Assembly: GCF_900104795.1 (NCBI RefSeq)
Contig: NZ_FNTG01000002.1
Span: 2,418,001 to 2,482,000, forward strand
Length of the DNA: 64,000 bases
DNA from: Burkholderia sp. WP9
GTDB taxonomy: Bacteria > Pseudomonadota > Gammaproteobacteria > Burkholderiales > Burkholderiaceae
Direction: 5' to 3'
The notes under the pieces were generated by a model. The model did not search any database and was not told the DNA's origin. It worked only from the letters and a program-made list of their open reading frames with translations. Below, one piece after another: positions 632-33,372 of the stretch. Position 1 is the stretch's first letter. Each line of letters begins with the position of its first letter. The position numbers and the translations under genes are program-made.

Positions 632-1360
632 TTATGCCTCGCTATTCTGGCTTGCCTCGTTCACCGCGACCGCGAGCGCCACCGAATCCGGCGGCACCGG
701 CAAACTCAACCGCACCGCGCGCAGCACCGTGTCCTTGATCACCTCGCACCAATGCTCGAGCGCCGCCTTCTCCATGAGCGGCTCACCCAGAAACGCGCCC
801 AACGTGTACTGATTGGCGTTATAAAAATACCCGAGCGAGGCGATCATCAAATACACATCGCGCGCTTTGACATCGGCACGGAACACCTGCTGCGCCTGAC
901 CCGCGTCCAATAACTTCTGCACCACCGAAATTGCATAGCCGGAAATCTCCTTCAGCTTCAGGGATTTCTTCGCGTGCTTGCCTTGATGCAGATTTTCGCT
1001 GGAGAGCAGCGTGACGAACTCGGGATGATCGAGGTAGTACTGCCAGACGAACTCGACCATCTGTTCGAGCCCATGCACCGGGTTGGCCAGATCGAGATCG
1101 AGCTTGCTTTCCGCCTCGTTGAACTGCGTGTAGATCGTTTCCAGAACCTCGACGAACAACTGCTCCTTGCTGCCGAAGTAGTAATAAATCATGCGGTCGT
1201 GCGAGCGTGCCGCCTTCGAAATACTCTCCACGCGGCCACTCGCATAGCCCTGCTTGGCAAAGACCTTGATGGCCGCTTTCAGAATCTTGGCGCGAGTGTC
1301 CTGCGCCTGTTTCGCACGGATGCCGGTAGCGCCCGGTTTGCGGGCGGCGGTGGGACTCAT
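632..1360 (-). CDS. TetR/AcrR-family transcriptional regulator, likely regulator of the nicotinate-type operon
   Basis: A 242-residue protein with a TetR helix-turn-helix at about residues 20-66 (DTRAKILKAAIKVFAKQGY, then SHDRMIYYYFGSKEQLF) and a helical ligand-binding C-terminal domain. The ATG at 1360 is preferred over the upstream in-frame start at 1543. The extra 61 residues lack family similarity, and the first recognisable residues are just before the HTH. The gene diverges from the catabolic operon beginning at 1710, and an inverted repeat lies between them, so it is probably the local repressor. The effector is not visible from sequence; nicotinate or 6-hydroxynicotinate is a guess from context. 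Confidence 0.88.
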   Translation of the reverse strand: MSPTAARKPGATGIRAKQAQDTRAKILKAAIKVFAKQGYASGRVESISKAARSHDRMIYYYFGSKEQLFVEVLETIYTQFNEAESKLDLDLANPVHGLEQMVEFVWQYYLDHPEFVTLLSSENLHQGKHAKKSLKLKEISGYAISVVQKLLDAGQAQQVFRADVKARDVYLMIASLGYFYNANQYTLGAFLGEPLMEKAALEHWCEVIKDTVLRAVRLSLPVPPDSVALAVAVNEASQNSEA

Positions 1361-1595
1361 GGCGGTCTCGGATCTCTTGTTAGCGTAGGTTGAATGGCAC
1401 GCGCCGCAGCCGGCCAGGCAGGGGCGCGCCTTCATCATACAGCCCGCATGGACGGTTGCGGGATGCGCTGCGCGATCATTCACTTCGGCGTAGATTGAAG
1501 CGTCATTCACACGGTGATGTGGCGTTGCACCAATCACGCGCATGCCAGTAAATACGTTGCGCAGACTAAATTGATCGAGTAGATTTCTAACGAGT

Positions 1596-1709: not shown

Positions 1710-3341
1710 ATGTCGTCGTATGGGAACCCCACCATGACAGAACATACGAAGGTCGATTTCGGAGCGGAGAGCGTCGACGGTGAAACCGCCTCGACGCCGG
1801 GTCCGACCGTGCTCGAGAAGGCGGCGCCGCGCAGCGAGCGGATGGCGTCGAACAAGATTGAATGCAACGCGTGCCCGGTGCTGTGTCAAATATCAGCAGG
1901 ACGCACCGGCGCATGCGACCGTTATGCGAACGCCGACGGCAGGCTCATTCGTGTCGATCCGGTGGTGTTCCTGTCGCGCGCGCCTTTAACAGCCGAAGCG
2001 GGCGCAGGCAGTGCGAACGCCACGATCGAATTTGGTGCGGCTTCCGAAGTGCGGGACCCCGCGGCCGAACAGGCGTTGTTCGTGACCGGCGTCGGCGCAT
2101 CCTCCACGTATCCCGACTACAAGCCGGCGCCCTTTATCGTCGCTTCGAAACTCGACGACGTCGACATGATCACGGTCGTCACCGAAGGCATTTTCAGCTA
2201 TTGCAGCTTCAAGGTGAAGATCGACACCGACCGCTTCCTCGGGCCGGAGCAGTCGAACGTGCGTTGCCAGGGCGAGATCGTCGGCCATGTGACGACGGCC
2301 GAATACGGTTCGCAGATGCTGAGCCTCGGCGGCGTGCATCATCTTACCGGCGGCAGCAAGAAAGAAGGCCGCGTGACGTGCGACATGATGCTCGCGCTCG
2401 GCAACAAGGAGGCGGTGGAACTGAGCATCGACGGCGGCGCGAGTCTGGTGATTCGCGCGGGCGCTGCGCCGATTGTCGACGGTGTCGAGGAGCAGCGCAT
2501 GCGCGTGGGCTGCGGGTCGGCCACGATCGGCATCTTCGCGAAGCAATGGTTCGGTCATGCCGACGAAGTGGTGGTCGTCGACGATCACATTACCGGCGTG
2601 CTGACCGAGCATCAGGCGGGTCGCTGTCTCGGCATGACGCGCTCAGGTCTGAAGATTCGCGGACGCAAGTCGACGCCGGGCCGTTATTTTCAGGTGGCCA
2701 ATCCCGGCACGGGTTGGGGCGGCACCGACATTCAGGACCCGCTCGCGATTGTCGAAGGCTTCGACCCTGCCGTCGCCAGGCCGGGTATGCGCTTGCTAAT
2801 GGTATCGACCACCGGCGAGCACGCGCAGTGGTACGAACTCGATCAGGATCTCGTGCCGCGCATCGCGGCGATGCCGGAGGCGGTGCGCCGCACGGTCGAA
2901 CGGATCGGCGAGAACTGCGAGCCGTCGCTGGCCACCGTGCTGTTTCTCGGCGGCGCGGGCGGCAGCCTGCGGGCGGGTGCCACGGAAAACCCGGTGCTGC
3001 TCACGCGCGCGATCAAACAGAAACTGGTCAACGTGACCTGCGGCGGCGCACCGGCTTACGTGTGGCCGGGCGGCGGCATCACGGTGATGGTGGATGTCTC
3101 GCGCATGCCCGACCGTTCGTTCGGCACGGTGCCGACACCCGCCATTGTCGCGCCGATCGAATTCACCATGACCTATGACGCGTATCGCGATCTCGGTGGT
3201 CATCTCGAAGCGGTGCGCTCACTAGAGAGCATATTGGCCAACGGGCCGGAGCATACGGAAGGCGCGCCGCTCGCGCGCCGAACCCTCGCGCGCAATCCTG
3301 ACAATCCGTGGCCGCCCGCCATGCCGCCGATGCTCGGCTAA
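1710..3341 (+). CDS. hnr: 6-hydroxynicotinate reductase-like iron-sulfur flavoprotein
   Basis: A 543-residue protein resembling the Eubacterium barkeri-type 6-hydroxynicotinate reductase, which reduces 6-hydroxynicotinate to 1,4,5,6-tetrahydro-6-oxonicotinate. An N-terminal cysteine cluster is visible: C52, C55, C59 in ECNACPVLC and C69 in GACDRY, suitable for an Fe-S cluster. A Gly-rich segment LGGAGGSLRAGATENP contains an AGAT motif (T425) like the Thr flavinylated by ApbE in other proteins. The start is uncertain. ATG 1710 has a GGAGCGGGA-like RBS about 10 bp upstream; ATG 1734 and 1842 are alternatives. It is the first gene of the operon and is followed by the ApbE-superfamily gene. The name rests on recalled family sequence plus the enamidase and NicAB neighbours. 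No ferredoxin gene is nearby. Confidence 0.75.
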   Translation: MSSYGNPTMTEHTKVDFGAESVDGETASTPGPTVLEKAAPRSERMASNKIECNACPVLCQISAGRTGACDRYANADGRLIRVDPVVFLSRAPLTAEAGAGSANATIEFGAASEVRDPAAEQALFVTGVGASSTYPDYKPAPFIVASKLDDVDMITVVTEGIFSYCSFKVKIDTDRFLGPEQSNVRCQGEIVGHVTTAEYGSQMLSLGGVHHLTGGSKKEGRVTCDMMLALGNKEAVELSIDGGASLVIRAGAAPIVDGVEEQRMRVGCGSATIGIFAKQWFGHADEVVVVDDHITGVLTEHQAGRCLGMTRSGLKIRGRKSTPGRYFQVANPGTGWGGTDIQDPLAIVEGFDPAVARPGMRLLMVSTTGEHAQWYELDQDLVPRIAAMPEAVRRTVERIGENCEPSLATVLFLGGAGGSLRAGATENPVLLTRAIKQKLVNVTCGGAPAYVWPGGGITVMVDVSRMPDRSFGTVPTPAIVAPIEFTMTYDAYRDLGGHLEAVRSLESILANGPEHTEGAPLARRTLARNPDNPWPPAMPPMLG

Positions 3342-3408
3342 CGGTGCCGCCCGCGCCGATCTAAACAACCCAACGCACCTAAAAGACGCAACGCACGTAA
3401 CGGACACG

Positions 3409-4347
3409 ATGAACCCAACCCGCACCCGACTCGATGCGACCCGCTGGCACTGGCAGCATGGGCCGATCGATCTGATCCTCAGCGCGGAAGGCACGCCTTC
3501 GGCGGTGCAGGCCGCGTATGAGGCGTGCTGGGCGCGTTTTGTCGACGTGTTGCCGGAGCTGGTGGGCGAGTTGCCGCGGCTTCGGCAGCCTGTGCCGGCC
3601 GACTCGACGTTGAACGGCACAGCGTTGCAAGGCGCGGTTGCCCGTCGCATGTGGTCGGCCTGTCATCCTCACCGGGCGCGCTACATCACGCCGATGGCGG
3701 CGGTGGCGGGCAGCGTCGCCGATGAATTGATCACGGCGTTTGCGCGCGAAGACATCTCGCGCGCATTCATCAACAATGGCGGCGACATTGCGCTTTATCT
3801 GACCGAGGGACAGCAATACCGCGTCGGCGTGTTCGCCGACCTCGCATCGTTCTCGCCCGTGCGGCTGTCACGCGATCAGACGCTCGACGCCAACCTGACG
3901 CTCGACGCGAACCTGCCGGTACGCGGCATTGCGACGAGCGGCTGGCGCGGCCGCAGCTTCAGCCTCGGCATTGCCGACAGCGTCACCGTGCTCGCGCGCA
4001 ACGCCGCCGCCGCGGACGCCGCCGCGACGATGATCGCCAATGCCGTCGATCTGGATCACGCGGGGATCTTGCGGCGTCCGGCTTCGTCGTTGAAGGACGA
4101 CAGCGACCTCGGCGACATGCTCGTCACAGTCGACGTGCCGTCCTTACCGCAGCCGCTGATCGATTTCGCGCTGGCGCGTGGCGTCGAAGCCGCCCAGCAC
4201 TTGCTCGCACAAGGCTTGATTGAAGGCGCCGCGCTATTCCTGCAAGGGCGGGTGCGCGTGGTTGGCATTCAGGACACAGGCGGGTTGCTCACGCAGCGCG
4301 CACAGATAAAAACGGAGGCTCCGTGTTCGAAATACGCCGCGTGCTGA
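3409..4347 (+). CDS. UPF0280 family protein (ApbE superfamily)
   Basis: A 312-residue protein of the UPF0280/COG2122 family, an uncharacterised branch of the ApbE flavin-transferase superfamily. ApbE-like marks seen are AFINNGGDIALYL (about residues 121-133, the GGDI motif) and the later SVTVLARNAAAADAAATMIAN (an ADA-type segment). It has no signal peptide, unlike periplasmic ApbE, so it should be cytoplasmic. It sits between the 6-hydroxynicotinate reductase-like gene and two DUF1185 genes and overlaps the next gene by 25 bp, which implies translational coupling. Because the E. barkeri reductase has a covalently bound flavin, a role in flavinylating the upstream protein is an attractive inference. 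No direct evidence exists here. Confidence 0.85.
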   Translation: MNPTRTRLDATRWHWQHGPIDLILSAEGTPSAVQAAYEACWARFVDVLPELVGELPRLRQPVPADSTLNGTALQGAVARRMWSACHPHRARYITPMAAVAGSVADELITAFAREDISRAFINNGGDIALYLTEGQQYRVGVFADLASFSPVRLSRDQTLDANLTLDANLPVRGIATSGWRGRSFSLGIADSVTVLARNAAAADAAATMIANAVDLDHAGILRRPASSLKDDSDLGDMLVTVDVPSLPQPLIDFALARGVEAAQHLLAQGLIEGAALFLQGRVRVVGIQDTGGLLTQRAQIKTEAPCSKYAAC

Positions 4348-4913
4348 CGCACGTCGAAGACATCTTCCACGAGTTCGTCCCCGCGCCCGCGCAGCCGCTC
4401 AGACGCGGTGCGATCGCCGCGGTGATGACGAACCCGTTCGCCGGGCGCTACGAAGCGAAAATCGAGCACGCAATGGAAGCGCTCAAGCCGATCGGCTTCG
4501 ATATGGCGCAACGGTTGCTGGCGGCGATGGCGGTGCCGCATGCGTCGATTGAAAGTTACGGCAAGGGCGCGATTGTCGGCTCGCGTGGCGAACTGGAGCA
4601 CGGCGCGTTGTGGCATGTGCCGGGAGGCTATGCGATGCGTGAGTTGCTGGAGAAGAACGGCGTGCCGACCAACGCCATCGTGCCGTCGACCAAGAAGGTC
4701 GGCGCGCCGTCCACCGCGCTCGACGTGCCGCTCACGCATGTCAATGCAAGCTACGTGCGCAGCCATTTCGACGCGATCGAAGTGCGCGTGCCCGGCGCGC
4801 CCGCAGCGGACGAGCTGGTGTATATCCTCGTGATGAGCACGGGGCAGCGCGTGCACGCGCGGGTGGGCGGCCTCGCGAAAGAGGCGATCGTGGGCAAGGA
4901 CGGTTTGCGCTGA
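4323..4913 (+). CDS. DUF1185 (amino acid synthesis, PF06684) family protein, copy 1
   Basis: A 196-residue protein starting at GTG 4323, with a GGAGGC ribosome site just upstream inside the end of the UPF0280 gene. Family marks are NPFAGRYEAK, SYGKGAIVG with GELEH, VPSTKK and DVPLTHVNASYVRSHFDAIE. All of these recur in the next gene. Published structures of this family show a chorismate-mutase-like fold and were interpreted as suggesting an amino-acid metabolic role; no reaction is established. In this operon it may act on a product of ring opening, but that is inference only. Confidence 0.85.
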   Translation: MFEIRRVLTHVEDIFHEFVPAPAQPLRRGAIAAVMTNPFAGRYEAKIEHAMEALKPIGFDMAQRLLAAMAVPHASIESYGKGAIVGSRGELEHGALWHVPGGYAMRELLEKNGVPTNAIVPSTKKVGAPSTALDVPLTHVNASYVRSHFDAIEVRVPGAPAADELVYILVMSTGQRVHARVGGLAKEAIVGKDGLR

Positions 4914-4973: not shown

Positions 4974-5558
4974 ATGGCAATCAAGCTTCGCAAGCTGGTC
5001 GTGCAAGTGGATGAAACACGCATTGAAATGGGCCAGGCCGTCGAGCCGCCGGCGCGTCGAGCCGTTGCAATTGCGGTGATCGATAACCCTTATGCCGGCC
5101 GCTACGAAGCCAAACTCGACGCGCTGATCGAAGCGGGCGAGGAGTTGGGCGCGTTGCTCGGCAACAAGTGTGTCGAAGCGCTCGGCATCGCGCCGGGCGA
5201 CGCGCAAAGCTATGGCAAGGCTGCTATCGTCGGCGAGGCGGGTGAACTGGAGCATGCCGCCGCGATTCTGCATCCGAAGCTCGGCGCGCCGCTGCGCGCG
5301 GCGGTGGAGAAAGGCGCGGCACTGGTGCCGTCGGCAAAGAAGATGGGCACGCTCGGCACCGCGATCGACGTGCCGCTCGGCCACAAAGACGCCGCCTTCG
5401 TGCGCAGTCATTTCGATGCGATCGAAGCGCGCGTGTCGGACGCGCCGCGTGCGAACGAAATTGTCGTCGCTGTCGCGGTAACGGCGTCAGGCCGGCCGCT
5501 GCCGCGCATCGGCGGGTTGCAGGTGAGCGAGATCAAAGGCGAAGACGGTCTGCGCTGA
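4974..5558 (+). CDS. DUF1185 (amino acid synthesis, PF06684) family protein, copy 2
   Basis: A 194-residue paralog of the preceding gene, starting at ATG 4974 after a GGAGAGCG ribosome site. It keeps the same marks: NPYAGRYEAK, SYGKAAIVG, GELEH, VPSAKKMG and DVPLGHKDAAFVRSHFDAIE. The two copies differ most in the first 30 residues and in the middle. Tandem duplication within one operon suggests either a heteromeric complex or two related reactions. The reaction is unknown. Confidence 0.85.
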   Translation: MAIKLRKLVVQVDETRIEMGQAVEPPARRAVAIAVIDNPYAGRYEAKLDALIEAGEELGALLGNKCVEALGIAPGDAQSYGKAAIVGEAGELEHAAAILHPKLGAPLRAAVEKGAALVPSAKKMGTLGTAIDVPLGHKDAAFVRSHFDAIEARVSDAPRANEIVVAVAVTASGRPLPRIGGLQVSEIKGEDGLR

Positions 5559-5699
5559 GTTTGCATCCGTTTATTTCGCTGTTACTGTCCTGCCGTTGAC
5601 GCGTGCGTGCATGGTGCCGCACGCGCTGCAACGATCTGCTGATCGTATCGAATGCGCGAGGCCGCGCACTCGCCGTTCAGCAAGCTGCCGAGGGTCGCG

Positions 5700-7640
5700 A
5701 TGTTTTCGAATTTGCTGGTACAGCTGGTCAACGGACTCGCCGACGCGTCGACGCTGTTTCTCGTCGCCGCCGGTTTGTCGCTGATCTTCGGCGTGACACG
5801 TATCGTTAACTTCGCGCACGGCTCGTTCTATATGTTCGGCATCTATGTCGCGTATAGCATCGCGAGCCGTTTCGGGCACACGGCGGGCGGCTTCTGGCTG
5901 TCGGTGCTGGCTGCGGCGCTGGTGGTCGCGGTGCTGGGCGCGCTGGTTGAGATGATCGTTCTGCGCCGTATCTACCAGGCGCCCGAGCTGTTTCATCTGC
6001 TCGCCACGTTCGCGCTGGTGCTGATCTTTCGCGATGCCGCGCTGTGGCTGTGGGGCCCGGAAGATCTGTTCGGCCCACGTGCGCCGCATCTGGCGGGCGC
6101 GGTCGATTTCCTCGGCCATCCGCTGCCTACCTACGACATTGCCTTGATCGTGATCGGTCCCGTGGTGTTGCTGCTGCTCTGGTACGCGTTGACACGCACG
6201 CGCTGGGGCACGCTGGTGCGCGCCGCCACGCAGGATCGCGAGATGCTTGGCGCGCTCGGCATCAATCAGGCGTGGCTGTTTACCGGTGTGTTTTTCGTCG
6301 GCGCGTTTCTCGCCGGGTTGGGCGGTGCGCTGCAAGGGCCGCGCATGTCGGCGAATCTGTCACTGGATCTGGAGACGATCGGCAACGCGTTCGTGGTGGT
6401 GGTGGTCGGCGGCATGGGTTCGATTCCGGGGGCGTTCATTGCCGCGCTGATCATCGCGGAGATCAAGGCGCTGTGCATCGGTATCGGCCACGTGACGATC
6501 TTCGGCGTCGGTCTGTCGTTGAGCCGCTTCACGCTGGTGGCTGAATTCGTCGTGATGGCGGTCGTGCTGGTGGTGCGTCCGTGGGGTCTGCTCGGCCGCG
6601 CGAGCGCCGCGGTTCGTGGCATGGCGGCGCCGGAAACGCCTTTGCGTCCGGCGGGCAAACGGCTCAAATGGCTGGCCGCCATCGCGTTGCTGGTTCTCGT
6701 GCTTGCGCCGCTCGCGGCCAACGCATTTCCGTACATGCCCGTATTGCTGGTCGAGATCCTGATCGCCGTGCTGTTCGCGACCAGTCTGCATTTCATCATG
6801 GGACCGGGCGGCATGCATTCGTTCGGCCACGCCGCCTACTTCGGACTGGGCGCATACGGCGCCGCGCTATTCCTCAAAGTGTTGAATTTGCCGATGGAAG
6901 CCGCGTTGCTGCTCGGCCCGCTATTGGCGGTGGCCGGCGCGCTGGTGTTCGGCTGGTTCTGCGTGCGCCTCTCCGGCGTCTATCTCGCGATGCTGACGCT
7001 CGCGTTCGCGCAGATCGTCTGGTCGGTGGTGTTCCAGTGGGACGACGTGACGGGCGGCAGCAACGGCATTCTCGGTTTGTGGCCGTCGAACTGGTTGTCG
7101 TCGCCGGTGGCCTTTTACTACGTGACGCTCGCCTGCGCCGTGGTCGGCGTGTGGCTGTTGCGCAAGATGTTGTTCTCGCCGCTGGGTTACGCCATGCGGG
7201 CCTCGCGTGACTCCGTGCTGCGCGCCGAGGCGATCGGCATCGACGTGAAACGCGTGCAATGGGCCGCGTTCGTGATCGCGTCGCTGTTCTGCGGACTCGC
7301 CGGATCGCTCTATGCCTTCTCGAAGGGCACGATTTCGCCGGAAGTGATCAGCGTGAGCCGTTCGGTGGACGGCCTCGTGATGGTGCTTCTCGGCGGCTTG
7401 CAGACACTCACCGGGCCGATTGTGGGCGCGGCCGTGTTCACGTGGCTGCAGGACACCGTCGCGCGGCAAACCGACTATTGGCAGGCGCTGCTGGGCTTCG
7501 CGATCCTGCTGTTGGTGATCGCGTTTCCGCAGGGGATCGTGGGCTTCATTTGTGAGCGTTTCGGCGACGATACCGCCGACCCGGCTGAGAAAAGCACCGT
7601 CCCGCCTGCTCAGCGCGCGGCGATCAAGGAGGGGCTATGA
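5700..7640 (+). CDS. Branched-chain-type ABC transporter permease, LivH-LivM fusion
   Basis: A 646-residue inner-membrane protein combining both permease subunits of a HAAT/Liv-type importer. Residues about 1-290 are LivH-like (LSLIFGVTRIVNFAHGSFYM, later GMGSIPGAFIAALIIAE) and about 320-620 are LivM-like (FGHAAYFGLGAYGAALF, SNGILGLWP, GLAGSLYAFSKG). ATG 5700 is preferred to the upstream 5652 start because it has GAGGG six bases before it and begins directly with the first membrane segment. The stop overlaps livG as ATGA. Its operon position suggests import of the heterocycle substrate, but ligand specificity cannot be read from the permease. Confidence 0.93.
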   Translation: MFSNLLVQLVNGLADASTLFLVAAGLSLIFGVTRIVNFAHGSFYMFGIYVAYSIASRFGHTAGGFWLSVLAAALVVAVLGALVEMIVLRRIYQAPELFHLLATFALVLIFRDAALWLWGPEDLFGPRAPHLAGAVDFLGHPLPTYDIALIVIGPVVLLLLWYALTRTRWGTLVRAATQDREMLGALGINQAWLFTGVFFVGAFLAGLGGALQGPRMSANLSLDLETIGNAFVVVVVGGMGSIPGAFIAALIIAEIKALCIGIGHVTIFGVGLSLSRFTLVAEFVVMAVVLVVRPWGLLGRASAAVRGMAAPETPLRPAGKRLKWLAAIALLVLVLAPLAANAFPYMPVLLVEILIAVLFATSLHFIMGPGGMHSFGHAAYFGLGAYGAALFLKVLNLPMEAALLLGPLLAVAGALVFGWFCVRLSGVYLAMLTLAFAQIVWSVVFQWDDVTGGSNGILGLWPSNWLSSPVAFYYVTLACAVVGVWLLRKMLFSPLGYAMRASRDSVLRAEAIGIDVKRVQWAAFVIASLFCGLAGSLYAFSKGTISPEVISVSRSVDGLVMVLLGGLQTLTGPIVGAAVFTWLQDTVARQTDYWQALLGFAILLLVIAFPQGIVGFICERFGDDTADPAEKSTVPPAQRAAIKEGL

Positions 7641-8446
7641 GCTTGCTGCGCGTCAGCGGTCTCTCCAAATCGTTCGGCGGCCTCAAGGCGGTCGACAATG
7701 TTTCCTTCGATCTCGAAGCGGGTCAATTGCTGGCACTGCTCGGGCCGAACGGTGCGGGCAAGTCCACCTGTTTCAATATGGTCAACGGGCAGTTGACGCC
7801 TTCGTCCGGGTCGATTCGTCTCGACGGTCATGAACTGGTCGGCATGCGTCCGCGCGACATCTGGCGGCTGGGCGTGGGGCGTACGTTTCAGATTGCCGCG
7901 ACCTTCAACTCCATGACGGTGATCGAGAATGTGCAGATGGCGCTGGTCTCGCGCGAACGCCAGACCTTCGGGCTATGGAAGCCCGCCCGTTCGCGCTACG
8001 CCGACGAAGCCCTCGCGCTGCTCGACCAGGTCGGCATGGCCGCGGACGCGAACCGCGCGTGCGGCGTGCTCGCTTATGGCGATGTGAAGCGTGTGGAACT
8101 CGCGATTGCGCTGGCCAATCGCCCCAAGCTGCTGCTAATGGATGAACCCACCGCCGGCATGGCGCCGAAGGAGCGCAACGAGCTGATGGCGCTGACCAAA
8201 CGTCTGGTCACCGAACACCAGATCGGCGTGCTGTTCACCGAGCACAGCATGGACGTCGTATTCGCCTACGCCGATCGCATGATCGTGCTCGCGCGCGGCA
8301 AGCTGATTGCCGAAGGCGACGCCGAGACGATCCGCAACGACCCGCGCGTGCAGGAAGTCTATTTCGGCACTGGCAAGACCTTCCAGCCGCACGCACCGCT
8401 GCACGACGCAGCCGGCGGCCATCAAGGCCAGGGAGCATTGCAATGA
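7637..8446 (+). CDS. livG: ABC transporter ATP-binding protein, LivG type
   Basis: A 269-residue cytoplasmic ATPase of the branched-chain/HAAT importer family. The Walker A GPNGAGKST is at residues 36-44. The LivG-type signature LAYGDVKRVELA replaces a standard LSGGQ, and Walker B is LLLMDEPTAG. A GGAGGGGCT ribosome site lies in the end of the permease gene; start and stop overlap neighbours by 4 bp on both sides. It pairs with LivF and the fused permease. It energises uptake of the ligand bound by the periplasmic protein encoded at 14703. Confidence 0.93.
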   Translation: MSLLRVSGLSKSFGGLKAVDNVSFDLEAGQLLALLGPNGAGKSTCFNMVNGQLTPSSGSIRLDGHELVGMRPRDIWRLGVGRTFQIAATFNSMTVIENVQMALVSRERQTFGLWKPARSRYADEALALLDQVGMAADANRACGVLAYGDVKRVELAIALANRPKLLLMDEPTAGMAPKERNELMALTKRLVTEHQIGVLFTEHSMDVVFAYADRMIVLARGKLIAEGDAETIRNDPRVQEVYFGTGKTFQPHAPLHDAAGGHQGQGALQ

Positions 8447-9156
8447 GCGAGCCGATGCTGAAAGTCTCCGGCCTCAACGCGTTCTATGGCCGCGCACATA
8501 TTCTGTTCGACGTCGGCCTCGAAGTCGGCCGCGGCGAAGTCGTGGCGCTGATGGGCCGCAACGGCGCGGGCAAATCGACCACGATGAAAGCCGTGATGGG
8601 CCTGCTGCCGCGCCGTCACGGCGAAGTCAGTTTTCGCGGCCAGAACATCACGGCGTTGCCGCCGTACAAGATCGCGCGCATGGGCATGGGCTTCGTGCCC
8701 GAGGATCGTCGCGTGTTCGCGGATCTGACCGTGATGGAGAACCTCGACACCGGCCGTCAGCCGCCGCGCGAAGGCGCACCGCAATGGACGCCGGAAAAAC
8801 TGTTCCGCCTCTTTCCCAATCTCGGCGAAATGCCGCAACGTCCGGGCGGCCAGATGAGCGGCGGCGAGCAGCAGATGCTCACCGTGTCGCGCACCCTGAT
8901 GGGCAATCCGTATCTGGTGCTGCTCGACGAACCGTCCGAAGGCGTGGCACCGGTGATCGTCGAACAGATGGCGAACATGATTCTCGAACTCAAGCGCGAA
9001 GGGCTGTCGATCCTGTTGTCCGAACAGAACCTGCACTTCGCCGAGCTCGTCAGCGACCGTGCGTACGTGCTCGAAAAAGGGCAGATCCGCTTTAGCGGCA
9101 CGATCGGCGAACTCGCACAGAACGAAACAGTGAGGCGCGCTTATCTGAGCGTGTGA
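8443..9156 (+). CDS. livF: ABC transporter ATP-binding protein, LivF type
   Basis: A 237-residue second ATPase of the importer, with Walker A GRNGAGKST at residues 38-46, signature MSGGEQQML and Walker B VLLDEPSEGVAP, all typical of LivF. The start overlaps the livG stop as ATGA. Length matches the family. Together with LivG and the LivHM fusion it forms a complete importer once the distal binding protein is added. Confidence 0.93.
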   Translation: MSEPMLKVSGLNAFYGRAHILFDVGLEVGRGEVVALMGRNGAGKSTTMKAVMGLLPRRHGEVSFRGQNITALPPYKIARMGMGFVPEDRRVFADLTVMENLDTGRQPPREGAPQWTPEKLFRLFPNLGEMPQRPGGQMSGGEQQMLTVSRTLMGNPYLVLLDEPSEGVAPVIVEQMANMILELKREGLSILLSEQNLHFAELVSDRAYVLEKGQIRFSGTIGELAQNETVRRAYLSV

Positions 9157-9230: not shown

Positions 9231-10430
9231 ATGGCAGCAGAGACGTTGACAGGCTTGTCGGGCAAGGTCGCGGTAACGAACATCGGGCTGCTGTTATCCG
9301 GCGATATCGATCAGCCGATTCTCGACGCGAACACGCTGGTGATCGACGACGGCGTGATCGTCGCGGTCGGCCGCGAAAAGGACTGCGATCTCGAAGGCGC
9401 GCGTACGACGGTCGATTGCAAAGGCACGACGGTTGCGCCAGGTCTGATCGACTCGCATGTGCATCCCGTTTTCGGCGACTGGACACCGCGCCAGAATCAG
9501 ATGGGCTGGATCGAATCGAATCTGAACGGCGGCGTGACCACGATGATTTCCGCCGGCGAAGTGCATTTGCCCGGCCGCCCGAAAGACGTGCTCGGCGTGA
9601 AGGCGCTCGCCATTACCGCGCAACGTTCGTTCGAGGGCATGCGCGGCGCGGGTGTCGGCGGCGGCGTCAAGGTGATGGCGGGCGCTCCGGTGATCGAGAG
9701 GGGTATGGTCGAGGAGGACTTCAAGGAGCTTTCGGAAGCGGGCGTCAAGCTGCTCGGCGAAGTCGGCTTGGGCAGTGTGAAGGGCGGCGAAGAGGCCGCA
9801 CAGATGGTGGCGTGGGCGCGCAAGTACGGCATTCAGAGCACGATTCACACGGGCGGTCCGTCGATTCCCGGCTCGGGCCTGATCGATCGCGACGTGGTGC
9901 TCGTCGCCGACGCGGACGTGATCGGCCACATCAACGGCGGGCATACGTCGCTGTCTTACCGGCATGTCTGCGATCTTTGCGAGCAGTCGAGCCGCGCGCT
10001 GGAAATCGTCCACAACGGTAATGAACGGATCGCCTTGCTGACCGCGCGCCATGCGATCGAATTGAAGTGTCCACACCGGATCATTCTCGGCACGGATAGT
10101 CCCGCCGGTTCCGGCGTGCAACCGCTCGGCATTTTGCGGATGATCGCGCTGATCGCGAGCCTCGCCGACGTGCCCGCGGAAATCGCCTTCTGCTTCGCGA
10201 CGGGCAACACCGCGCGTCAACGTAATCTGCGCCAGGGGCTAATCGAAGTGGGCCGTCCCGCCGACCTCGTGTTCATGGACCGCGCGCAACACACGGCCGC
10301 CGATACGCTGCTCGAAAGCGTGCAGCTCGGCGATATTCCGGGCGTGGGCATGGTGATGATCGACGGGCTGATTCGCTGCCGGCGGAGCCGCAATACGCCA
10401 CCGGCCACCGAAGTGCCGGTGGTGCTGTGA
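9231..10430 (+). CDS. ena: Enamidase-like amidohydrolase
   Basis: A 399-residue amidohydrolase-superfamily enzyme closely resembling E. barkeri enamidase, which hydrolyses 1,4,5,6-tetrahydro-6-oxonicotinate to ammonia and 2-formylglutarate. Metal-ligand motifs seen are DSHVHP (H76, H78), the later IHTGG and GHINGG histidines, and GTDSPAG with the catalytic-type Asp. Enamidase-like strings include GGVTTMISAGEVHLPGRPKD and the C-terminal SRNTPPA. The start ATG is preceded by AAGGAGAAG. In the operon it would act immediately after the reductase encoded at 1710. Dihydroorotase or imidazolonepropionase activity is less likely given these strings. Confidence 0.85.
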   Translation: MAAETLTGLSGKVAVTNIGLLLSGDIDQPILDANTLVIDDGVIVAVGREKDCDLEGARTTVDCKGTTVAPGLIDSHVHPVFGDWTPRQNQMGWIESNLNGGVTTMISAGEVHLPGRPKDVLGVKALAITAQRSFEGMRGAGVGGGVKVMAGAPVIERGMVEEDFKELSEAGVKLLGEVGLGSVKGGEEAAQMVAWARKYGIQSTIHTGGPSIPGSGLIDRDVVLVADADVIGHINGGHTSLSYRHVCDLCEQSSRALEIVHNGNERIALLTARHAIELKCPHRIILGTDSPAGSGVQPLGILRMIALIASLADVPAEIAFCFATGNTARQRNLRQGLIEVGRPADLVFMDRAQHTAADTLLESVQLGDIPGVGMVMIDGLIRCRRSRNTPPATEVPVVL

Positions 10431-10470: not shown

Positions 10471-10989
10471 ATGAACCGCCCGGCGCCTCTTACGCTGAAG
10501 GTGAACGGCGCGACGCATCTCGTCAGCGCCGCAGCCGATACGCCGCTGCTCTACCTGCTGCGTAACGACCTCGCGCTGAACGGTCCGAAATTCGGCTGCG
10601 GTCTCGGCGAATGCGGCGCGTGCACGGTCCTGCTCGACGGCATGCCGACGCGCGCGTGCGTCACCACGGCAAAGGTCGCGTTGGGCCGCGAAATCACCAC
10701 GCTCGAAGGACTCGGTACGCGCGCCGCGCTGCATCCGGTGCAGCAGGCGTTTATCGAAGAGCAGGCCGCGCAGTGCGGCTATTGCCTGAACGGCATGATC
10801 ATGACGGCCAAGGCGCTGCTCGATCGCGATCCGCATCCGAGCGTCGAGACGATCCGGCGCGAGTTGTCGCGCAATCTGTGCCGTTGCGGCACGCATGTCG
10901 AGATCGTGCGCGCGGTGCAGCGCGCCGCTGAATTGCTCGCGGCGCAAGCGGCGGCGCAACCCGCCGTGCATGAAGGAGCGCGTGCATGA
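10471..10989 (+). CDS. nicA: Nicotinate dehydrogenase-like (2Fe-2S) subunit, NicA type
   Basis: A 172-residue two-cluster ferredoxin-like subunit of a xanthine oxidase-family hydroxylase. The plant-type cluster ligands are C43, C48, C51 and C63 (FGCGLGECGACTV). The second cluster uses C102, C105, C137 and C139 (CGYC, LCRC). It passes electrons from the molybdenum centre to the hemes of the partner subunit. Its stop overlaps the next gene by 4 bp. The two-subunit layout with a cytochrome-fused large subunit matches Pseudomonas putida NicAB, hence the name. Isoquinoline- or aldehyde-oxidising relatives share the layout and remain possible. Confidence 0.82.
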   Translation: MNRPAPLTLKVNGATHLVSAAADTPLLYLLRNDLALNGPKFGCGLGECGACTVLLDGMPTRACVTTAKVALGREITTLEGLGTRAALHPVQQAFIEEQAAQCGYCLNGMIMTAKALLDRDPHPSVETIRRELSRNLCRCGTHVEIVRAVQRAAELLAAQAAAQPAVHEGARA

Positions 10990-13900
10990 CCGGCCCGGAC
11001 TTCAGCGTCGATCGACGCGCCGCGCCACCTTCGCGACAACAGCTCTATGACGCGCAGAGCGTGCTGATCGTCACGCGGCCGCCGCAGGCGCCGGTCAAGC
11101 CGGCAATCGGTCAGCCGGGTTCGCGTTCGTCGTTCGTGCCGACCGAGGCGGACCTGTTCCTCGTGGTGCGCGACGACGGCAGCGTGGTCGCGTTCAACGG
11201 TCACGTCGATCTCGGCACCGGCATCGGCACCGCGCTCGCGCAGATCGTCGCGGAAGAACTGGATGTGCCGTTGACACGCGTGTCGATCGTGCTCGGCCAT
11301 ACGCGTGAAGCGCCGAATCAGGGGCCGACGATCGCCAGCGCGACGATCCAGATATCGGCGGTGCCATTGAGACACGCCGCGGCGCAGGCGCGGCAATTTC
11401 TGCTGGCTGAGGCGGCGGCGCGGTTCAGCGTGAGCGTCGAGCAACTCGACGTACGTGACGGTGTGGTTTTTCAGCGCGACGGCGATACTGCCGCGAAAGG
11501 CATCAGCTACGGCGATCTGGTGAGCGGGAAGCGTGTCGAACTGAAGCTCGATACGAACGCGCCGCTAAAGTCGCCGGACACCTACAGAATCGTCGGCAAG
11601 AGTGCGCCGCGCGTCGATATTCCCGCGAAGGCCACCGGCGAATTGAGTTTCGTGCATGACGTACGCGTGCCGGGCATGTTGCACGGTCGAGTGGTGCGTC
11701 CGCCCTATGCCGGTGTCGCGCAGGGCGACTTCATGGGCAACAGCCTGCTGCGCGTGGATGAAGATTCCGTTAGCGATTTGCCCGGTATCGTGAAGGTCGT
11801 CGTGATTCGCGACTTCGTCGGTATCGTGGCAGAGCGTGAGGAAATCGCGCAGCAGGCCGTGAAGCGGCTGCGCGTGCAATGGAAAGCGGTTGAAGGCCTG
11901 CCAGCGCTCGAAACCAGCGAGGACGTGGAAGCGGCCTTGCGCGCGAATCCGGCCAAACGGCGCGATCTGGTGATCGAGGGCGACGTCGATGCAGCGCTGG
12001 CGCAAGAGTCCGATCGCAAGCTGGAACGCACTTACGTGTGGCCGTTTCAGATGCACGCATCGATCGGACCTTCGTGCGCGGTGGCCGACTATCGCGAGGG
12101 CGCGTTGAAGGTCTGGTCGGGCACGCAGAATCCGCATTCGCTGCGCGCCGATCTCGCATTGCTGATGAGCATGGACGAAGCGCACATCGAGATCGTGCGG
12201 ATGGATGCGGCCGGCTGCTACGGCCGCAATTGCGCGGACGATGTCGCCGCCGACGCCGCGCTGCTCTCGCGCGCCGCCGGCAGTCCGGTGCGCGTGCAAC
12301 TTTCGCGCGAGGACGAGCATGCGTGGGAGCCGAAAGGCGCCGCGCAATTGATGGACGTGCGCGGCGCGTCGAATGCCGGGGGCGAACTGGCCGCATACGA
12401 CTTTGCGACGCGCTATCCGTCCAACGATGCGCCGACGCTGGCGCTGCTCCTGACCGGCACGATCGCCGCGCAGCCGCAGGTGTTCGAAATGGGCGACCGC
12501 ACGGCCGTGCCGCCGTACGATTACCGCACCATGCGTATCGTTTGCGACGACACGCCGCCGATCGTGCGCGCGTCGTGGTTGCGCGGCGTGTCCGCGTTGC
12601 CGAACACGTTCGCGCACGAGTCGTTCATCGACGAACTGGCGGCGCAGGCGGGTGTCGATCCGGTCGAGTTTCGTCTGAAGCACCTGCGCGATCCACGCGC
12701 GATCGAGCTGGTCAAAGCCGTCGCGGAGAAAGCCGGGTGGGAGCCGCATAGCGCCGAACTCAAAGAGGATGAAGGCGACATCGCACGCGGGCGGGGTTTC
12801 GCTTATGCCCGCTACGTGCATAGCAAATTTCCCGGCTTCGGCGCGGCGTGGTCTGCGTGGGTGGCCGATGTCGAAGTCAATCGCAAGAGCGGCGAGCTGG
12901 CGGTGACGCGCGTGGTGGTCGGCCAGGATACCGGCACGATGGTGAATCCCGACGGCGTGCGTCATCAGATACACGGCAACGTGATTCAGGCGACGAGCCG
13001 CGCGCTGAAAGAACGTGTGACGTTCGGCGAGAATGCGGTGACGAGCCAGGAGTGGGGCGCGTATCCGATTCTGACCTTCCGCGAAGTGCCCGTGATCGAT
13101 GTGGTGATGATGCCGCGCCACGGCGAGCCGCCGATGGGCGCGGGCGAATCCGCGTCGCTGCCCGGCGCGGCTGCGATCGCCAATGCGCTCTTCGATGCCA
13201 CGGGCGTGCGTTTTCGCCGGCCGCCTTTCACACCGGAGACGATCCGCGCCGCGCTTGCCGATGCGCAAGCCGAAGACAAGGCGGCGCGCAGGAAGAAGCG
13301 CTGGCGATTGGGTTTTTTAGGCACTTTCGCGGCGGGCGCAGTGGGATGGCTCGGCGCATTCTCGCTCGCGCCGCACGCGATCGCACCGATCACGCCGCCG
13401 CTGGCGAGTGCGTTTCCGGCCGATCTCGTGGCGCGCGGCAAAGTGCTGGCGTCGCTCGGCAATTGCGCGGTCTGCCATACCGCGCACAACGGCGTGCCGA
13501 ACGCCGGCGGCAAACCGCTCGATACGCCCTTCGGCACCGTGTACAGCACCAACATCACCCCGGACGGCCTGACCGGCATCGGCAACTGGTCGCTCGAAGC
13601 GTTCATGCGGGCGATGCGGCAAGGCATCAGCCGCGATGGACATCGTCTCTATCCGGTCTTCCCGTACACCTCGTTCCAGAACACTTCCGACGACGATCTG
13701 AAAGCGCTCTACGCCTACCTGATGGCGCAAACGCCAGCGCGCTCGCGCCCGCCGGAAACGAAGCTGGCGTATCCGTTCAGCGTGCGACCGCTCATGGCCG
13801 CATGGAACGGACTCTTTCTCGGACGCACGGCTTTCACCGCCAGCGCGACGCAAAGCGCGCAATGGAATCGCGGCGCGTATCTGGTGAATGGGCTCGGCCA

Positions 13901-14594
13901 TTGCAGCGCGTGTCATACGCCGCGCAATGCATTCGGCGCCGAGAAAGCCGGCGCGGCATTCATGGGCGGCGGTGTCGCCGAAGGCTGGGAAGCGCCCGCG
14001 TTGTCGACGCTTTCGAACGCGCCCGTGCCCTGGAGCGAGGACGAACTGTTCAGCTATTTGCGCTCCGGCCACGCACCGATGCACGGCGTCGCGGCGGGGC
14101 CGATGGCGCCCGTGGTCGGCGATCTGGTGGCGCTGCCCGACAGCGATATTCGCGCAATGGCCACCTATCTCAGTTCGCTCAGCCCGTTGGAACCGAACGC
14201 CGATCCGATCGCGGTCGCACGCCAGGTTGAACAGGCGAGCGCGATCTCAGGCGCGCCGGCCGGCCTCGGCGCGCGACTCTTCGACGGCGCGTGCGCCGCC
14301 TGTCATCACACGGGGAGCGGGCCGCAACTGTTCGGCGCGCATCCATCGCTCGCGCTCAACACGAATCTGCACAGCACGACGCCTGATAACCTGATTCGCG
14401 TGATTCTCGACGGCATCGGCTCGCCTGCGCGTCCCGAACTCGGTACGATGCCGGCTTACCGCGACAGTTTCAACGACACCCAGGTGGCCGAGCTCGTGTC
14501 GTACCTGCGTCAGCAATTCGCCGGTGGCAAGCCGGCCTGGCAGAACGTCACGGCGAGCGTCGCCCGGATTCGCGCGACGGCGCGCGTCGATTGA
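10986..14594 (+). CDS. nicB: Nicotinate dehydrogenase-like molybdopterin subunit fused to tri-heme cytochrome c, NicB type
   Basis: A 1202-residue protein, close to the 1187 residues of P. putida NicB. Residues about 40-755 are the molybdopterin-binding hydroxylase part (FNGHVDLGTGIGTALAQIV, later GAGESASLPGAAAIANA). A basic stretch at 770 leads into a membrane helix at about 774-795. The C-terminal domain then carries three CxxCH heme sites at 827, 973 and 1103. The family hydroxylates nicotinate at C6 with water and sends electrons through cytochrome c to the respiratory chain. The membrane helix places the hemes in the periplasm and the hydroxylase in the cytoplasm. The substrate is inferred from the hnr and ena neighbours. 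Confidence 0.85.
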   Translation: MTGPDFSVDRRAAPPSRQQLYDAQSVLIVTRPPQAPVKPAIGQPGSRSSFVPTEADLFLVVRDDGSVVAFNGHVDLGTGIGTALAQIVAEELDVPLTRVSIVLGHTREAPNQGPTIASATIQISAVPLRHAAAQARQFLLAEAAARFSVSVEQLDVRDGVVFQRDGDTAAKGISYGDLVSGKRVELKLDTNAPLKSPDTYRIVGKSAPRVDIPAKATGELSFVHDVRVPGMLHGRVVRPPYAGVAQGDFMGNSLLRVDEDSVSDLPGIVKVVVIRDFVGIVAEREEIAQQAVKRLRVQWKAVEGLPALETSEDVEAALRANPAKRRDLVIEGDVDAALAQESDRKLERTYVWPFQMHASIGPSCAVADYREGALKVWSGTQNPHSLRADLALLMSMDEAHIEIVRMDAAGCYGRNCADDVAADAALLSRAAGSPVRVQLSREDEHAWEPKGAAQLMDVRGASNAGGELAAYDFATRYPSNDAPTLALLLTGTIAAQPQVFEMGDRTAVPPYDYRTMRIVCDDTPPIVRASWLRGVSALPNTFAHESFIDELAAQAGVDPVEFRLKHLRDPRAIELVKAVAEKAGWEPHSAELKEDEGDIARGRGFAYARYVHSKFPGFGAAWSAWVADVEVNRKSGELAVTRVVVGQDTGTMVNPDGVRHQIHGNVIQATSRALKERVTFGENAVTSQEWGAYPILTFREVPVIDVVMMPRHGEPPMGAGESASLPGAAAIANALFDATGVRFRRPPFTPETIRAALADAQAEDKAARRKKRWRLGFLGTFAAGAVGWLGAFSLAPHAIAPITPPLASAFPADLVARGKVLASLGNCAVCHTAHNGVPNAGGKPLDTPFGTVYSTNITPDGLTGIGNWSLEAFMRAMRQGISRDGHRLYPVFPYTSFQNTSDDDLKALYAYLMAQTPARSRPPETKLAYPFSVRPLMAAWNGLFLGRTAFTASATQSAQWNRGAYLVNGLGHCSACHTPRNAFGAEKAGAAFMGGGVAEGWEAPALSTLSNAPVPWSEDELFSYLRSGHAPMHGVAAGPMAPVVGDLVALPDSDIRAMATYLSSLSPLEPNADPIAVARQVEQASAISGAPAGLGARLFDGACAACHHTGSGPQLFGAHPSLALNTNLHSTTPDNLIRVILDGIGSPARPELGTMPAYRDSFNDTQVAELVSYLRQQFAGGKPAWQNVTASVARIRATARVD

Positions 14595-14702
14595 GTCGAT
14601 GAGCCGATTCGGTCGAGATGGATCGAGATAAATCGCAAGCCGCTCGAACACCTGATAACAACGACCAGCATTCCCGCAATCCTTTTGATAACGGAGAAAC
14701 GC

Positions 14703-15911
14703 ATGACCACGCGCGCAGGATGGATTTCTCGCCTCATGGTGCCGACCGTACTGTCGTTCGCCGCTTTGAGCGCGAGCGCACAGCAGACCATCAAGATCGG
14801 CGAGATCAATAGTTACAAGGCGCAGCCCGCCTTTCTCGGGCCTTACAAGAACGGCTGGAATCTCGCGCTCGACCAGGTGAATGCCGCAGGCGGCGTACTC
14901 GGCAAACAACTCGAAGTGGTATCGCGCGACGACAACGGCAATCCCGGCGACACGATTCGCGTCGCGCAGGAACTGATCGCGCGCGAGCAGGTGCAATTGC
15001 TGTTCGGCGGCTTCCTCTCGAACACCGGCCTCGCACTGGCCGACTTCTCGAAGCAGAAGAAGATTTTCTTCCTTGCCGCTGAACCGCTGACCGACAAGAT
15101 CGTGTGGGCCGACGGCAACAAATACACCTACCGTCTGCGACCTTCCACGTATATGCAGGTGGCGATGCTCGTGCCGGAAGCGGCCAAGCTGAAGAAGAAG
15201 CGCTGGGCGCTGGTGTATCCGAACTACGAGTACGGGCAGTCGGCGGTGGCGACTTTCAAGAAACTGCTGACGGCGGCGCAGCCCGATGTACAGTTCGTCG
15301 CAGAACAGGCCACGCCGCTCGGCAACGTCGATGCGGGCGCGGTGACGCAGGCGATCGCCGATGCCAAGCCGGACGCGATTTTCAACGTGCTGTTCGGCGC
15401 GGACCTCGGCAAGTTCGTGCGTGAGGGCAATACGCGCGGACTCTTCAAGGATCGCAGCGTAGTGTCGCTGCTGACGGGTGAGCCGGATTATCTCGACCCG
15501 CTGGGCGCGGAAGCGCCGACCGGCTGGATCGTCACGGGCTACCCGTGGTATTCGATCGATACGGCCGCCAACAAGAAGTTCGTCGACGCCTATCAGGCCA
15601 AGTACCACGACTATCCGCGGCTCGGCTCGGTGGTGGGGTATTCGGCGTTGATGTCGATTGCCGCGGGGATCAAGAAGGCCGGGTCGGTCGATCCGGATAA
15701 GCTCGCCGCCGCGTTCAAGGGCCTCGGCGTGGAGACGCCCTTCGGGCCGATCACCTATCGGGCCCAGGACAATCAGTCCACCATGGGCGCGTACGTCGGC
15801 GTGACGGGGTTGAAAGACGGCAAGGGCGTGATGACGTCCTACCGGTATATCGATGGCGCGAGCGTTCAGCCGTCGGATGCCGAGGTCAAGAAGCTGCGGC
15901 CCGCCGAGTGA
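14703..15911 (+). CDS. ABC transporter periplasmic substrate-binding protein (Liv/HAAT type)
   Basis: A 402-residue periplasmic binding protein of the branched-chain amino acid/amide type. A signal peptide ends at about ASA-QQ (residue 24), and the mature protein opens with TIKIGEINSY. ATG 14703 is chosen for its ACGGAGAAAC ribosome site; a TTG at 14685 is upstream. It closes the operon 108 bp after the nicB-like gene and should serve the LivHM/LivG/LivF importer encoded at 5700-9156. The ligand is unknown; nicotinate or a related carboxylate is inferred from context only. Confidence 0.9.
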   Translation: MTTRAGWISRLMVPTVLSFAALSASAQQTIKIGEINSYKAQPAFLGPYKNGWNLALDQVNAAGGVLGKQLEVVSRDDNGNPGDTIRVAQELIAREQVQLLFGGFLSNTGLALADFSKQKKIFFLAAEPLTDKIVWADGNKYTYRLRPSTYMQVAMLVPEAAKLKKKRWALVYPNYEYGQSAVATFKKLLTAAQPDVQFVAEQATPLGNVDAGAVTQAIADAKPDAIFNVLFGADLGKFVREGNTRGLFKDRSVVSLLTGEPDYLDPLGAEAPTGWIVTGYPWYSIDTAANKKFVDAYQAKYHDYPRLGSVVGYSALMSIAAGIKKAGSVDPDKLAAAFKGLGVETPFGPITYRAQDNQSTMGAYVGVTGLKDGKGVMTSYRYIDGASVQPSDAEVKKLRPAE

Positions 15912-33210: not shown

Positions 33211-33372
33211 TGCTAAGCTCTCAATCTGTAATTTGCTTGGGATGGTTTCACCCAGGATTTGAAAAAAGTTTATCAAAGCAAGGCCCATCCCACCCCCGGC
33301 ATACTGAAACAACTTTCCGGCTGCATGCAATCACCAGCGCACGGATCGCACATTAGCTAGGCTTCCGGGATC

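Follow-up and report, generated by a model that had tools for sequence, protein, structure and literature searches.

The locus described here raises the question of what a protein of the UPF0280/COG2122 family does when its gene lies directly behind that of a reductase of nicotinate breakdown. The window, that is, the whole stretch of 64,000 nucleotides (nt) that was analyzed (Burkholderia sp. WP9, contig NZ_FNTG01000002.1, positions 2,418,001 to 2,482,000), encodes an Hnr-type 6-hydroxynicotinate reductase of 543 amino acids (aa; 1710..3341, + strand), recognized from named relatives and cross-phylum alignments. At a spacing of 67 nt and on the same strand follows a 312-aa UPF0280/COG2122 protein (3409..4347, +) of the ApbE superfamily, classified by profile and residue counts and lacking the HxxDPxTG motif. 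The original prediction had taken this protein for a cytoplasmic transferase that attaches flavin covalently to the reductase. The gene pair is laid out as predicted and is genuine, and the case for it is stronger than the prediction could know. Our preferred reading is that UPF0280 is a cytoplasmic, Hnr-dedicated maturation partner with an ApbE pocket devoid of the general-base His, which would equip the reductase with a cofactor, most likely flavin; we hold it tentatively, at somewhat short of an even chance.

Some of the closest database relatives of the reductase carry the source name 6-hydroxynicotinate reductase, with Paraburkholderia names. An amidohydrolase encoded further downstream (9231..10430, +) matches 2vun, the Eubacterium barkeri enamidase, with an E-value of 1.1e-109, and the assignment to the nicotinate pathway therefore holds. 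Judging from the named relatives and from this pathway context (the enamidase and a molybdenum (Mo) hydroxylase), the reductase is of the Hnr type, and the cluster represents the tetrahydro-6-oxonicotinate (THON) route of nicotinate breakdown. No Pfam or NCBIfam match was obtained for the reductase at 1e-3, and no known fold was found for its 543 aa.

UPF0280 accompanies Hnr in several phyla

Among 398 Pseudomonadota genomes, Hnr and UPF0280 were each found in 32, and these are the identical 32 genomes, belonging to 15 genera. The Hnr search returned 33 rows, of which one (G392, a 77-residue match at 36% identity) was set aside, while in G016 the gene is in two frames; the UPF0280 search (NF003322) returned 34 rows, 32 of them over the cut-off, and G293 and G373 (20-22 bits) were set aside. 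The genera were counted from the rows, the automatic tallies of 16 each including one weak genus. In all 60 Pseudomonadota loci inspected, which overlap and cover the 32 genomes, the two genes share the strand and are separated by -4 to 488 nt.

A further sample, chosen by means of a low-GC DNA pattern derived from Hnr, yielded 25 stretches from the genome collection, of which 24 encode Hnr and one (L074) is a chance pattern match. UPF0280 lies within the stretch in 19 of the 24 Hnr loci. For L061, L062, L068, L075 and L081, where the stretch itself does not show it, UPF0280 is likewise present in the genome, with scores of 227-242 bits, short of the NF003322 cut-off, in three cases. In L062 (Granulosicoccus) the gene lies further upstream in the cluster, flanked by an AA_synth gene on each side, as seen from L087, whose final 142 bases overlap L062 with no mismatch. 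UPF0280 also accompanies Hnr in an Acidobacteriaceae genome.

The same association was seen in two further phyla, where 19 of the 21 Hnr genomes taken together hold UPF0280. In the phylum of the Syntrophomonadaceae (199 genomes), 67 genomes show some Hnr match, but this match is strong in only five (G446, G451, G456, G499 and G515, the last with two copies); all five hold UPF0280, in the same cluster as Hnr for six out of six copies. The matches in the other 62 genomes, which were set aside, are weak and cover only the N-terminal Cys region: Hnr residues 52-81 (CxxCxxxCx9C..R..N..G) align there with the starts of other proteins, in frames of mostly ~265-420 residues, possibly a radical-SAM-type family. 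At locus L124, one 2.9-kb Mo-hydroxylase-like frame stands between Hnr and UPF0280. In the phylum of genome G403 (52 genomes), Hnr was found in 16 genomes (E-value of 1e-10 or better), UPF0280 in 16 and both together in 14, with Hnr adjoining UPF0280 in 10 of these 14. Both genomes with Hnr and no UPF0280 (G624 and G640) have the Hnr gene cut by a contig end; the UPF0280 gene of G641 is likewise cut by a contig end, and G644 has DUF39, the only genome of this phylum that does. Hnr thus has UPF0280 as a near-obligate companion not only in Pseudomonadota but also in the Acidobacteriaceae genome and in both other phyla, and the adjacency of the two genes is far beyond chance. The survey of genomes that the original prediction had called for came out in its favor.

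HcyA is a second partner of UPF0280

Hnr is not the sole partner of UPF0280. A Syntrophomonadaceae genome (G402), encountered through a chance match of the Hnr DNA pattern, carries DUF39, NIL/ferredoxin and UPF0280 genes in a row. Across the 199 genomes of that phylum, DUF39 (HcyA) was found in 67 and UPF0280 in 76, and every one of the 67 DUF39 genomes belongs to the 76; DUF39 and a strong Hnr never occur together in one genome. The gene order DUF39-NIL/ferredoxin-UPF0280 was present in 29 of the 30 DUF39 loci examined (of 69 places), and in the remaining genome (G416) UPF0280 lies on a different contig. Nine UPF0280 genomes are devoid of DUF39: five have Hnr, in one (G478) UPF0280 is next to NIL/ferredoxin at the end of a contig, and three (G497, G512 and G519) have partial UPF0280 genes only. 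The HcyA-type homocysteine enzyme is a second, equally faithful partner. When 31 HcyA loci were searched with ~1.5 kb on each side, seven genes of the nicotinate cluster (both AA_synth genes and those for the permease, enamidase, [2Fe-2S] subunit, molybdenum cofactor (MoCo) subunit and TetR regulator) gave no match at 1e-3. Since these loci have UPF0280 without the other nicotinate-cluster genes sought, the helper that both kinds of locus have in common suggests that the reductase is its target.

The family is also less obscure than the original prediction, which called it uncharacterised, had assumed. The portions of the literature that deal with COG2122 report that it is required for homocysteine synthesis in Desulfovibrio vulgaris, where mutants are rescued by methionine and fitness tracks that of DUF39 (cofitness r 0.98 over 170 experiments; PMC5764234), that MA1715 of Methanosarcina acetivorans is called a sulfur-trafficking protein (PMC12068725), and that a COG2122 protein of Methanococcus voltae is more abundant with sulfide, its C-terminal Cys cluster being proposed as an iron-sulfur (Fe-S) ligand (PMC9431491). 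Those portions of the three papers treat the protein via homocysteine and sulfide phenotypes, and Hnr goes unmentioned in them.

A quick maximum-likelihood tree (no bootstrap) was built from 61 UPF0280 proteins, 35 Hnr-linked and 26 HcyA-linked. L129 was labeled HcyA-linked by its NIL/ferredoxin neighbor (no DUF39 was found in the genome) and L133 by DUF39 on another contig; L087, L089 and L091 were labeled Hnr-linked by genome. All Hnr-linked proteins fall on one side (SH-aLRT 100), including six from the Firmicutes-type phylum, and the partner label changes once; L150 forms a long branch. The split follows the partner, not the host. Compared with the COG2122 proteins of homocysteine synthesis (MA1715, DvMF_0044; structure 2o34), the window protein belongs to the same family, has the same invariant pocket and is likewise the operon partner of a reductive, Fe-S-linked enzyme, but it falls in the separate clade. 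Hnr-linked proteins also have an extra stretch (residues 216-251 in the window protein) that is missing from the HcyA-linked rows compared. Furthermore, position 175 is Ala in 33 of the 35 Hnr-linked proteins, the window protein among them, and Cys in 25 of the 26 HcyA-linked ones.

These observations bear on an alternative that we regard as unlikely, in which UPF0280/COG2122 traffics sulfur, handles persulfide or has an Fe-S-related role, along the lines proposed for MA1715 and HcyA; alongside Hnr, it would supply sulfur to an Fe-S or Mo enzyme encoded in the cluster. The homocysteine and sulfide phenotypes and the conserved Cys of the HcyA-linked clade speak for it, as does the need of both Hnr and the Mo hydroxylase for Fe-S. 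However, the replacement of this Cys by Ala disfavors a relay through it for Hnr, no invariant Cys was present in a set of 32 Proteobacterial sequences, and the invariant positions common to both clades form an ApbE-like pocket and include no Cys.

Local profile-profile comparison of Hnr with DUF39 (PF01837) gave E-values of 0.19-0.59 over the main regions and global comparison one 31-column sub-region at 0.049, against reversed controls of 0.27 and 0.49; a sequence search with DUF39 found no clear solved structure (best E-value 0.11).

UPF0280 retains an ApbE-like pocket

The window protein scores 419.7 bits against NF003322 (PRK04334; cut-off 290), which makes its family membership certain, as the original prediction had it. 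It matches the solved structure 2o34 ('Hypothetical protein'), presumably DVU1097, with an E-value of 1.5e-7, and the newer precomputed Pfam PF02424.21 marks many of its close relatives. Its kinship with the ApbE superfamily is real but weak, and membership of PF02424 is not claimed. No signal peptide is evident on reading the N terminus (MNPTRTRLDATRW), as had also been noted.

In ApbE, the catalytic triad is formed by Asp285, Ser241 and His257, with His257 as general base, catalysis is Mg-dependent, and the target motif is D-x-x-[ST]-G-A-[ST] (Journal of Biological Chemistry review, PMC12052999, in its description of the enzyme). The GGD, TSG and ADxxAT positions of ApbE are kept in UPF0280, and the NNGGDI motif pointed out in the original prediction is present. 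Throughout the 61 proteins GGD (124-126), G181, G187, D203, A206 and N211 are invariant, and T176 is kept in 60. S177 is conserved in 35/35 Hnr-linked and 21/26 HcyA-linked proteins; D203 is found in all 35 Hnr-linked rows, and T207 in 34/35 Hnr-linked and 22/26 HcyA-linked rows (56 Thr and five Ser overall). Mapped by motif rather than by structure, the Ser and Asp would correspond to two of the three triad residues, and D203 and T207 to metal-site positions of ApbE. The pattern suggests a pocket that has been kept and a general base that has been lost.

Among the ApbE flavin adenine dinucleotide (FAD):protein flavin mononucleotide (FMN) transferases (PF02424), which include the cytosolic Klebsiella enzyme for soluble fumarate reductase, the gene likewise lies beside that of the proposed target, and UPF0280 resembles them in its weak profile match, its three shared motifs and its lack of an evident signal peptide. 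It differs from them in that much of the ApbE N-terminal part is missing, as judged by eye.

What UPF0280 may do for Hnr

Under our preferred reading, UPF0280 would use the nucleotide/Mg pocket of the ApbE fold, in the absence of the general-base His, to equip Hnr with a cofactor. The likeliest candidate is flavin: the E. barkeri Hnr reportedly contains covalently bound flavin together with Fe-S clusters ([2Fe-2S] and two [4Fe-4S]). The HcyA-linked clade would serve HcyA in a comparable way. What is observed is near-obligate co-occurrence, adjacency in most cases, a UPF0280 clade specific to the partner and conservation of the ApbE Ser and Asp; what is inferred is that Hnr, and no other enzyme of the cluster, is the one acted upon, that anything is transferred at all, and that flavin is the cargo. 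The flavinylation originally predicted has to be modified: it would be the work of a His-less ApbE relative that acts on two client families, at a non-canonical site. In that form it is possible, though we are rather more inclined to doubt it than to accept it. If it is true, protein flavinylation would no longer be confined to HxxDPxTG enzymes and to the D-x-x-[ST]-G-A-[ST] motif, with a bearing on homocysteine synthesis in methanogens and sulfate reducers.

Hnr as a second faithful partner of COG2122, for which covalent flavin has been reported, raises the question of whether COG2122 attaches flavin and HcyA is a flavoenzyme. A bolder proposal, which we find improbable, is that this His-less ApbE branch attaches the same cofactor, probably flavin, covalently to Hnr and HcyA, two unrelated-looking cytoplasmic reductases. 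In this case HcyA would carry flavin covalently, and COG2122 mutants would owe their sulfide phenotype to HcyA left without its flavin.

A number of results weigh against flavin transfer to Hnr. On the side of the enzyme, the match to PF02424 (E-value 1.9e-5, 24.8 bits) is just under the gathering score of 25.6, and the ApbE-like features hold for the Ser and Asp positions and the Thr of ADxxAT and fail for the histidine segment. DPxTG, part of the HxxDPxTG motif that contains the general-base His, is present in none of the 61 UPF0280 proteins. The Ser-to-Asp segment measures 23-24 residues in 60 of them (L150 was the one row unmatched by the segment expression) and is ~18 residues shorter than in the canonical ApbE of the same genome, which is its single PF02424 match at 1e-3 and carries HVVDPRTG, with ATSG and ADAYAT separated by 41 residues. 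No His is conserved in the segment; any His occurs in 6/35 Hnr-linked and 10/25 HcyA-linked proteins. The loss of the histidine segment with retention of the pocket positions, together with the near one-to-one presence of UPF0280 with its partner enzyme, could also be explained by a protein that has lost catalysis and serves Hnr and HcyA as a scaffold, chaperone or permanent subunit, perhaps binding nucleotide or flavin non-covalently. We consider this a minor possibility, as D203 and T207, which map to the metal site of ApbE, are conserved beyond a mere scaffold's need.

On the side of the target, the attachment site originally proposed for flavin transfer, T425 within RAGATENP (codons of G423-A424-T425 at 2976..2984, +, counted from the ORF start), is indeed nearly conserved: 50 of the 51 sequences in one Hnr set have Thr there, and an overlapping 25-row cross-phylum set has Thr in 23, Ser in one (L128) and Val in one (L017). 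Its context, though, is not that of an ApbE target. D-x-x-[ST]-G-A-[ST] was found in 0/120, 0/25 and 0/51 Hnr sequences of three sets (the last two overlapping) and in 0/30 DUF39 proteins; in the window Hnr, S419 and A422 occupy the places of the required Asp (-6) and Ser/Thr (-3). The 'GAT' itself reads G-V-T in 45/51 and 21/25 rows, residue 424 thus being mostly Val in the diverse sets, away from the lineage of the window, and AT is kept in 88 of the 120 closest proteins. The Ser and Thr residues invariant in 25/25 rows are T155, S163, T173, S201, T322, T339, T367, T368 and S419.

As to the cofactor, covalent flavin is reported for the E. barkeri Hnr only. Firmicutes-type Hnr proteins (39-42% identity) have, in five out of five rows, an extra N-terminal domain with eight Cys in ferredoxin-like spacing that precedes the CxxC set. 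Such an arrangement would be consistent with the two [4Fe-4S] clusters and one [2Fe-2S] cluster reported for E. barkeri. This domain is absent from the window Hnr and from the remaining rows of the 25-row set. The window Hnr has one CxxCxxxCx9C set (C52, C55, C59 and C69) and further conserved Cys residues at C165, C268 and C403, and its cofactor content may therefore differ.

Gene neighborhood is equivocal as well. In the G403 phylum, Hnr and UPF0280 are ~2.4-2.6 kb apart in G617 and G619 and on different contigs in G620 and G621, and AA_synth is almost as faithful a neighbor, lying beside UPF0280 in 28 of 29 loci, so that adjacency alone does not name the target. UPF0280 could instead contribute to the AA_synth, Mo hydroxylase or enamidase step of the nicotinate cluster and stand beside Hnr by operon order only. 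In L087 it has an AA_synth gene on either side and is at a distance from Hnr, and in G620 and G621 it is with AA_synth on a contig other than that of Hnr. Nevertheless, we judge this explanation quite unlikely: AA_synth was not found at 1e-3 in the available stretch of seven SAR116 loci with adjoining Hnr and UPF0280 (L064, L065, L073, L078, L082, L084 and L085), and the 31 HcyA loci share UPF0280 and none of the other cluster genes sought. For the original prediction, finally, the 67 of 76 Syntrophomonadaceae-phylum UPF0280 genomes that carry HcyA set a boundary: the companionship with Hnr stands, whereas the role of transferase for Hnr-type enzymes could at most be true for one clade.

Other genes of the nicotinate cluster

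Two AA_synth genes (PF06684/DUF1185) follow UPF0280 on the + strand, the first (4323..4913), the usual neighbor of UPF0280, and the second (4974..5558), which resembles 2qtp (E-value 4.4e-85), both identified with Pfam. In a Firmicutes-type nicotinate cluster (L126, 7286-8569), a 427-aa open reading frame (ORF), judged by eye to encode a transposase, putatively IS110-like, lies between UPF0280 and AA_synth.

Next comes a branched-chain-amino-acid-type ABC transporter (5652..9156, +; Pfam), made up of a fused permease (5652-7640) and two ATPases (7637-8446 and 8443-9156). Beyond the enamidase lies a nicotinate-dehydrogenase-like Mo hydroxylase of two subunits (10471..14594, +; Pfam and NCBIfam), the [2Fe-2S] subunit (10471..10989) and a MoCo subunit fused to cytochrome c (10986..14594), a form suited to aerobic electron transfer. 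A periplasmic binding protein (14685..15911, +; domain match to Peripla_BP_6) is a probable transporter component, and a divergent TetR-type regulator (632..1543, -; Pfam and NCBIfam) precedes Hnr. Hnr, enamidase, Mo hydroxylase and transporter are common to the window and to the nicotinate fermentation/THON clusters of E. barkeri, Azorhizobium and strain SG-6C; the window differs from these in the cytochrome c fusion, and from the Firmicutes type in the Hnr devoid of the ferredoxin-like domain.

Elsewhere in the window, two 483-aa DDE transposase ORFs (33441-34892 and 35982-37433; DDE_Tnp_1, DUF772) with equal Pfam scores lie 2541 nt apart, close to a 300-nt direct repeat whose copies, at 33365 and 35906, are 99% identical.

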